In this document: in pieces, positions 9,997 to 11,749 of the stretch
Numbering within the stretch: position 1 is the first letter of the stretch
Layout of the letters: each line of letters opens with the position of its first letter
Assembly: GCA_026126205.1 (NCBI GenBank)
Contig: JAHCJP010000001.1
Span: forward strand, 744,001-808,000
From: Maricaulaceae bacterium
GTDB lineage: Bacteria > Pseudomonadota > Alphaproteobacteria > Caulobacterales > Maricaulaceae
Direction of reading: 5' to 3'
Length of the DNA stretch: 64,000 nucleotides
The notes under the pieces: generated by a model
What the model saw: the letters and a program-made list of their open reading frames with translations, nothing else
Database searches by the model: none
Told to the model about the DNA's origin: nothing
Program-made: the position numbers and the translations under genes

Positions 9997-10929
9997 GTGA
10001 TCATCAAGCCTGACGGGGGCCAGCACGCCGCCGGCGCCAGCACGGCGCGCTACACCTATGGCCCCTATGGCGAGCCGGACGCCTGGACCGGGGCGCGCTT
10101 CCGCTACACCGGCCAGGCCGCCCTGCCCGAAGTGCAGCTCTATCACTACAAGGCCCGGGTCTACGATCCGCTGCTGGGGAGGATCCTGCAGACCGACCCG
10201 ATCGGATATCAGGATGATCTGAACCTCTACGGGTATGTGCGGAACGATCCGCTGAATCTGACAGACCCGACGGGGATGTTCAGGGATTTTGGTTTCGGCG
10301 TAGGTACGCAGCACTTGACCCATGCAATGCAAATAGCTCAAAGAGACAACGTTTCTTTTGAAAGCGCGTTTCACAAGGCCGCTACGTTTGATAGAGTTTT
10401 GGCACCGGGGGCAGCTGCTCTTGGTTTAGGGTTAGGCGCAGCCGGCGGCGCTGCCGCCTGCACAGCAGGTGGCTGCGGCGCCATCACCCTTGCAAGCGCG
10501 CGGTTTGTTGCGACGCACCCTAATACAGCATCTGGACTTGCAGGTGCTACAGCCGCATTCTCTGTAGATGCGTATTCGCAATCAAGAAATGATTCCCCAT
10601 TTAATTTTCAACAGAGCGCTATTAAAACTACAGCGGGGTTCGCTGCGGGTTTTGCCCTTCGTGGTATGGCCACAGCAAACAATACTGAGCGAGCACTGGT
10701 AGCTTTTACGTTTGGCGCTTCAGGCGCACAGGCGCTTGGTGGCGATGGGCGAGATATGGCTCTTGCCGGACTTGGGTCAATCGCTACTATGAACGCTGGT
10801 CCCTTCACAGCGGAAGTAACGATGCAGGCTTTGCAAGACGTGCAGGACTATCTTGGAAGCATGTTTTCGGCCAACGACAGAACCGCCAGCCGCCTTGGGC
10901 CACCCTCGTGCGACCCGACGATATGCTAA
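9997..10929 (+). pseudogene. RHS repeat-associated core fragment with variable C-terminal tip (5'-truncated)
   Basis: The reading frame carries only the last part of an RHS protein. The hyperconserved core is clear: [53 protein letters not shown] and [18 protein letters not shown]. The roughly 1000-residue YD-repeat shell that should precede it is absent, so expression depends on a GTG at 9997 with no clear ribosome site. After DPTG comes a tip of about 215 residues with Gly/Ala-rich hydrophobic stretches ([26 protein letters not shown]), ending CDPTIC. Base composition falls after about 10270. It could be a dead remnant or an orphan tip kept as a recombination donor. Confidence 0.8.
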
Positions 10930-11276
10930 TGAAGGAAGGAATAGATAAAAAAAGACTTTCGTTATATTGGGCTATAGTTCATATTCGAATTTTTGTAGCT
11001 TCTTCATTATTTAGCATTATATCGTATATGATTTATGGAGAAGATGTTCAGGGTATAGCTGATATTTTTGAATTTTTATTGATGAGCTCGCTTATAGTTT
11101 ACGCTGTGTTTTTAGTTTTTTTTTACATCCCCAACTATGCCGCTTACAAGCAGATTAAGCAACGTGGCTCAGAGGATAGATTAATATCAGATATGAGAAA
11201 TGAAGACAAAAAACTAAGGTTCAACTTATTAGTTGAATTTTATATACCAAGAAAAATGATTGAGTATGGGCATTGA
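10929..11276 (+). CDS. AT-rich small membrane protein, candidate immunity protein for the RHS tip
   Basis: A 115-residue protein starting MKEGIDKKRL, with two strong hydrophobic helices (IFVASSLFSIISYMIYG and FLLMSSLIVYAVFLVFFYI) and a charged C-terminal tail. Its start overlaps the stop of the RHS tip (TAATG), the usual arrangement for toxin and immunity genes in polymorphic toxin loci. The DNA is strikingly AT-rich compared with all neighbours, a sign of transfer. No family is recognised. If the tip acts on membranes, a membrane-embedded immunity protein would make sense, but that is inference. Confidence 0.6.
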   Translation: MKEGIDKKRLSLYWAIVHIRIFVASSLFSIISYMIYGEDVQGIADIFEFLLMSSLIVYAVFLVFFYIPNYAAYKQIKQRGSEDRLISDMRNEDKKLRFNLLVEFYIPRKMIEYGH

Positions 11277-11280
11277 CGTA

Positions 11281-11454
11281 CCCACCACCACCAACGGCCA
11301 GCTCACTTTCGTCTACGACCGCTCCGAACAGCCGGTGAGCATGTCCGGCGGCGCGGCGGCGAGCTTCGTCTAGGACGCCCACCGGCGCCGGGTGCGCCAG
11401 ACCATCGACGGCGAGACGATCTACTCGGTCTACACCTCCGGCGGGGGGCATTGT
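11281..11454 (+). pseudogene. Displaced RHS YD-repeat remnant with in-frame stop
   Basis: Reading in the frame beginning at 11281 gives TNGQLTFVYDRSEQPVSM, then a TAG at 11371-11373, then DAHRRRVRQTIDGETIYSVY. The pattern Y-D-A-x-x-R-R-V-R-Q-T is the standard RHS unit, so the TAG replaces the expected TAC tyrosine codon. High GC returns abruptly at its left end. It matches the part of an RHS protein that comes before the core, so it sits out of order, after the tip and membrane-protein genes. Confidence 0.75.
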
Positions 11455-11503
11455 CAGACAAAACCGGCTTGAGGCGGGAAGGGCGGTTTCGTAGCATCTG
11501 CGG

Positions 11504-11749
11504 ATGAGAAACCCCTTCCGCTATTTCAAGTCATCGCCCGAGGTCATCCGCCTCGCGGTGATGATGTATGTCCGGTTTCCGCTGTCGCTGCGCAATGTCG
11601 AGGATCTGCTGCACGAGCGCGGCATCGACCTTTCACACGAAACCGTACGCTTCTGGTGGAACCGGTTCGGGCCGATGTTCGCGGCGCAGATCCGGCGCCG
11701 TCCGGCTGATTTCCCGAGCCCTTCGGAGATTCCGGGCGCACCAGGATAA
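11504..11749 (+). mobile_element. IS6-family transposase, N-terminal fragment
   Basis: The first 65 or so residues match IS6-family (IS26/IS6100 type) transposases: FRYFKSSPEVIRLAVMMYVRF, SLRNVEDLLHERGIDLSHET and RFWWNRFGPMFAAQIRR. After residue 65 the match stops and the frame runs out as unrelated PADFPSPSEIPGAPG. The DDE catalytic domain is missing, so the element is dead. It directly borders the RHS remnant, which ends at GGCATTGTCAGACA, a possible left terminal repeat of the insertion sequence (not confirmed). Confidence 0.8.

Follow-up and report, generated by a model that had tools for sequence, protein, structure and literature searches.

Orphan rhs-CT/rhsI modules are functional (PMC3150448). 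The described systems that come closest to the locus analyzed here include: (i) the orphan rhs-CT/rhsI and cdiA-CT/cdiI modules of Dickeya and E. coli (PMC3150448) and the orphan Rhs toxin of Salmonella (PMC3967940), in which a detached core end and its tip lack a start signal, a small gene stands directly behind, several modules occur per genome and the tips differ after a common core, (ii) the Rhs C-terminal tip Tse5-CT of Pseudomonas aeruginosa, which depolarizes cells and is blocked by Tsi5, an immunity protein with two predicted transmembrane (TM) regions (PMC9637101, PMC10684867), (iii) the CDI ionophores (CT-EC93 group), which are all-helical and highly sequence-variable and are neutralized by two-helix hairpins of 72-100 residues with both ends cytoplasmic (PMC11630599), and (iv) the EsxX/TelE glycine-zipper depolarizing toxins, which combine a Gly-rich C-terminal part with membrane-protein immunity (PMC12744356).

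The window, a 64,000-nucleotide stretch of a Maricaulaceae genome (2.54 Mb, 99.98% complete, 9 contigs), includes at positions 9997-11276 a module that probably (at roughly 85%) encodes a toxin/immunity pair (Table 1). This reading, already put forward in the first-pass annotation, is well supported by architecture, as the tip is swapped at DPTGM, the gene behind it overlaps and is AT-rich, and five sister cassettes carry different tips and genes; from this arrangement we infer the toxicity of the tip, the immunity conferred by the small protein and the pairing of the two. Judged from sequence, the module is an orphan rhs-CT/rhsI module sensu Poole et al. (PMC3150448), because core ends are found with swapped tips, no full-length Rhs is detected and TssC/VipB is absent.

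Table 1. Features of the candidate toxin/immunity module, its surroundings and related elements of the same genome. Positions without a locus label are those of the window.
Feature	Position	Strand	Basis or remark
Rhs core remnant plus tip frame	9997..10929	+	GTG start, 310 aa, open from 9928
Rhs-associated core remnant, end ...NLTDPTGM	10026..10278	+	TIGR03696; ~93% identity to sister fragment
C-terminal tip after DPTGM, 216 aa, candidate toxin domain	10279..10926	+	identity break at DPTGM; no family match
Most hydrophobic Gly/Ala-rich tip stretch	10402..10503	+	19-residue mean hydropathy up to 1.47
Candidate immunity gene, small (115 aa), product with two membrane spans	10929..11276	+	hydropathy, helical model, charges
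Second broken Rhs-repeat fragment, probable	11264..11445	+	reads ...FVYDRSEQPVSM...YDAHRRRVRQTIDGETIYSVYTSGG, in-frame TAG; by eye
Truncated IS6-family transposase plus terminal repeat GGGCATTGTCAGA	11446..11749	+	NF033587 E 8e-17, profile 2-62 of 202
Other five Rhs cassettes	L006 7561-8675; L007 5109-6680, 7553-8607; L008 6275-7434; L017 6700-7300		
Hairpin element, own genome	L007 6584-6614, 8650-8680; L008 6144-6174; L017 6595-6625		

The Rhs fragment has a threonine synthase gene as its upstream neighbor; its frame is without an ATG start or export signal, and no Rhs body lies upstream at the locus. Residues 21-94 of the frame match TIGR03696 at 78 bits in a profile search (cut-off 32.5). 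A sister Rhs fragment (G000:C1:706521-706783), which carries another tip with another gene behind it, was matched at 92% identity; a direct count gives 93% over the 240 bp up to DPTGM and 23% over the 60 bp that follow. By this comparison, the tip is exchanged at DPTGM between the two Rhs fragments, and the Rhs core end is joined to a polymorphic tip at DPxG as in orphan rhs-CT/rhsI modules. Six Rhs core ends are distributed over three contigs of the genome; their tips are intact and all different, and behind each tip stands a separate frame. The partners in the other five cassettes include a Sel1-repeat-like protein, two lipoprotein-like proteins and others, all of which are AT-richer than the genome.

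Full-length Rhs was not detected in the genome: a search with the Rhs-repeat family (PF05593) gave one short match, and a 641-residue Asticcacaulis Rhs body used as query returned the core ends and one short repeat only. By contrast, the described orphan modules accompany a main rhs gene (upstream for the Salmonella orphan, PMC3967940). TssC/VipB (PF05943), looked for as a sign of delivery by type VI secretion (T6SS), is absent from this Maricaulaceae genome, whereas Tse5 uses the T6SS. In genomes of the same family (G024, G014, G019, G021, G018 and G017; L166-L170 and L172-L174), 3-12 Rhs core ends are noted per genome. The frames that carry these core ends are all shorter than ~530 aa, and the ~10 kb upstream of the inspected arrays yielded no Rhs body. 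Rhs repertoires made up of orphans alone may be widespread in this family.

Downstream of the small gene are a probable second Rhs-repeat fragment and the remnant of an insertion element. The broken Rhs-repeat fragment gives no PF05593 match at E 0.01. The IS6-family remnant type has four matches in the genome, including those at window 11446-11749, G000:C1:52704-52960 and 705211-705444; every remnant of this type found is on contig C1, in the same orientation, and follows an Rhs core at a distance of 1-1.6 kb downstream. IS6-family remnants may be shapers of the orphan cassettes. A near-identical 48-bp hairpin element (GTTCGCCGGGGATTCGATCCCCCGGATCGAATCCTGATCCGGCTCACC) is present in four of the six Rhs cassettes, directly left of the Rhs core position LQTDP in three of the four; neither the window nor a 400-kb sample of the rest of the genome contains a copy. 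Variants of the hairpin occur at three loci of two relatives (L096, L097, L107), where the stems are kept by compensatory paired changes, and similar elements are found outside Rhs in Rhodobacterales plasmids (L195-L197), at least one of them inside a transposase frame. Small palindromic elements are known to insert into coding sequence (e.g., those of Rickettsia), and the 48-bp element resembles palindromic elements of this type.

The ATG of the small gene and the TAA of the tip overlap by one base (TAATG). The G+C content steps from 66% in the core remnant to 55% in the tip and 30.7% in the small gene, compared to 67.9% for the window, and the small gene is the most AT-rich window stretch of its size, with no sampled 348-bp stretch as low. 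The tip frame is open in 3 of 5000 first-order shuffles and that of the small gene in none of 5000; thus, both look like coding sequence and not an accident. A promoter search of the module found one site, compared to 1.2 expected, and none that is credible. The small protein has two hydrophobic spans (hydropathy peaks of 1.67 and 2.5) and is modeled as a helical hairpin (helices 7-36, 41-78 and 82-105; pLDDT 71). With four K/R residues at the N-terminus, none in the loop (which has three acidic residues) and ten at the C-terminus, its charge pattern fits an N-in/C-in hairpin.

Much of the first-pass annotation is borne out by these results, including the tip of about 215 residues, the small protein of 115 residues, the TAATG overlap, the drop in base composition that is strongest in the small gene and the two predicted membrane helices of its product. 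Its description of the frame as the last part of an RHS protein stands as to the core remnant, which is real by the TIGR03696 match, but the remnant is a detached fragment that lacks an ATG and not the end of an Rhs gene. Similarly, the tip is Gly/Ala-rich (33% Gly+Ala) and hydrophobic as described (whole-tip GRAVY +0.16), but only mildly so: the last 120 residues have a GRAVY of -0.09, and no stretch reaches the cut-off of 1.6 for a membrane span (best 19-residue mean 1.47).

The tip is modeled as all-helical, although at a pLDDT of 46 this single-sequence prediction is of low confidence, too poor to support a fold search, and serves as a hint only. GxxxGxxxG-type motifs number 2 in the tip compared to 1.8 expected in shuffles, which is not above chance; thus, the tip is not to be classed as a glycine-zipper toxin. 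The Gly-x3-Gly-x3-Gly motif common to the CDI ionophores (PMC11630599) is likewise not beyond chance in the tip. The locus shares with the CDI ionophores a helical polymorphic tip and a small two-helix hairpin partner, both modeled here, but differs from them in its carrier (an Rhs core and not CdiA) and in the length of the small protein (115 compared to 72-100 residues) (PMC11630599). The EsxX/TelE toxins, alike in their Gly-rich C-terminal part and in membrane-protein immunity (a candidate here), are of T7SS/LXG type, belong to Gram-positives and have an extended zipper (PMC12744356). Neither a CdiA (VENN) nor an LXG carrier accompanies the tip. The likeness to Tse5-CT/Tsi5 is that of an Rhs C-terminal tip and a candidate immunity protein with two predicted TM regions; in sequence, Tse5 is matched in the core, with which PDB chain 8cp6_B, the Tse5 sequence compared, ends.

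Searches of the tip and the small protein against Pfam, NCBIfam, PADLOC, PHROGs and PDB gave nothing above noise, in agreement with the initial statement that the tip fits no toxin family. The tip has no convincing relative among 60 close, 385 class-wide and 398 order-wide genomes, a genome-contig collection, plasmids, phages and viral contigs, and no relative of the small protein turned up in the 398 order-wide genomes, the genome-contig collection, plasmids and viral contigs; the collection scans respond to near-exact peptides and could overlook distant relatives. The first-pass annotation had also proposed to check full-length Rhs genes of relatives for this tip, and no such case was found in anything searched. 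Thus, the pair is new insofar as no family or relative was found, while its kind is known from orphan rhs-CT/rhsI modules and from a depolarizing tip with two-TM immunity.

Several candidate relatives were rejected. A weak match of the tip at L016 sits in an ATP synthase subunit c gene and reflects Gly/Ala bias, and the matches at L019-L021 and L165 are as weak, at the level of composition bias. For the small protein, DUF6056 of Pfam (16 bits compared to a cut-off of 27) and phage membrane proteins (sub-threshold matches) were set aside as hydrophobic bias. An Asticcacaulis Rhs (plasmid match H1) that seemed to reach 30 residues into the tip is convincingly aligned in the core only, and a Tse15 match that likewise seemed to enter the tip scores 23.8 bits, hardly more than the 22.6 of the core alone. 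The Asticcacaulis plasmid pASTEX02 (L052 1453-4200) encodes a 760-aa Rhs protein with an apparent Sec signal peptide. Directly behind this gene is an unannotated AT-rich multi-span frame that is likely an immunity gene.

Rhs tips were surveyed in 60 relatives and 385 class-wide genomes, yielding 121 tips in 110 sequence clusters, from which 99 other unrelated tips of Alphaproteobacteria were compared, all with a frame of 55 residues or more starting close to their stop codon. Partners were taken as ATG-initiated longest frames, and hydrophobic spans were called where hydropathy passed a simple threshold. Of the 99 partners, 25 have at least two such spans; tips with such multi-span partners have a median GRAVY of 0.07 over their last 120 residues compared to -0.57 for the others (Mann-Whitney p=1.8e-7), in a test that was devised after seeing the loci and that draws on related genomes, though the tips were clustered. 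These tips also have more Gly+Ala (0.28 compared to 0.19, p=1.7e-5) and less charge (p=6.7e-5). A multi-span partner accompanies 11 of 12 tips with a last-120 GRAVY of at least 0.1, compared to 14 of the 87 other tips (p=3.6e-7), and 13 of 21 with a whole-tip GRAVY of at least 0, compared to 12 of 78 (p=5.4e-5). The tip at 10279..10926 falls by its whole-length GRAVY into the favorable group (7/11 in its bin with a multi-span partner) and is intermediate by that of its last 120 residues (4/10). The partner genes have a median G+C of 0.39, and for 80% of them the start lies between -20 and +30 relative to the stop of the tip. The length of the tip is at the 79th percentile of surveyed Rhs tips (median 178) and, thus, within the normal range.

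Based on the survey statistics and on analogy, the toxin would seem somewhat more apt to act on membranes than by other means. The early proposal of a membrane-active toxin with membrane immunity is supported to this extent, while the mildly hydrophobic last 120 residues and the lack of a zipper excess count against it. The module is best regarded, with some reserve, as a sequence-orphan pair of the membrane-depolarizing Rhs tip/immunity kind that is kept without a delivery protein. As to mechanism, membrane action and topology, we infer the following. A full Rhs protein would carry the tip, an antibacterial toxin domain, into a neighbor cell, where the tip would insert in the cytoplasmic membrane as a Gly/Ala-rich helix bundle and dissipate the membrane potential. 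The 115-residue protein, a predicted two-helix hairpin of the cytoplasmic membrane with both ends inside, would bind the inserted tip and block its action. The Rhs body would have been lost here, leaving the module with no obvious way out of the cell. The pair may be retained as immunity against relatives that use the same tip, or as a cassette that can be joined to an incoming Rhs gene by recombination at the Rhs core.

The main alternative is a different division of labor within the tip, in which the Gly/Ala-rich helices would form an entry (pre-toxin) segment that moves the tip across the target membrane, the poison would be an unrecognized enzymatic domain in the last 50-100 residues and the small protein would keep its immunity role. 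The surveyed tips L079 and L073 have such a Gly/Ala-rich stretch followed by a recognizable enzymatic or Hint-like part, with a soluble partner for L079, and the DNase Tde1 depends on a glycine-zipper stretch for its entry (PMC10240207). In the tip analyzed here, however, the Gly/Ala-rich helical pattern continues far into the C-terminal part and leaves little room, no enzyme family is matched and the partner is a membrane protein, a type that in the survey accompanies hydrophobic C-terminal parts; the entry segment is thus considered unlikely.

Decay or truncation of the tip, in a module that no longer functions and is carried along next to IS6-family scars, would accord with the missing Rhs body, ATG start and credible promoter, as well as with the IS6 remnant and broken Rhs repeat that adjoin the module. 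Both frames are, however, intact against expectation, the tip is of normal length and in none of the genome's six cassettes is the tip or the frame behind it broken, making such decay distinctly improbable. The small gene could also be unrelated to the tip (e.g., a membrane-protein gene that strayed in from a phage or IS element), as its lack of homologs and the weak phage matches might suggest. Against this stand the one-base overlap, the shared strand and composition step, the same arrangement in the survey loci and the failure of the searches to find a viral or phage relative; a chance neighbor is thus highly improbable. The preferred reading remains that of a toxin/immunity pair.

A broader possibility, offered tentatively and more doubtful than not, is that Alphaproteobacteria have a large, unrecorded class of Gly/Ala-rich Rhs tips that are unrelated in sequence and paired with two-span immunity proteins, and that this lineage keeps a scattered bank of cassettes without Rhs bodies, either for standing immunity or as toxin-antidote units in their own right. 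None of the searched libraries recognizes the probable toxin/immunity pair described here, and the survey provides a simple rule, in which hydrophobicity of an Rhs tip is predictive of a multi-span immunity gene, for spotting membrane-acting tips without homologs. The genome, in which six Rhs tips but no Rhs body were detected, offers a clean test of whether orphan modules are retained for immunity.
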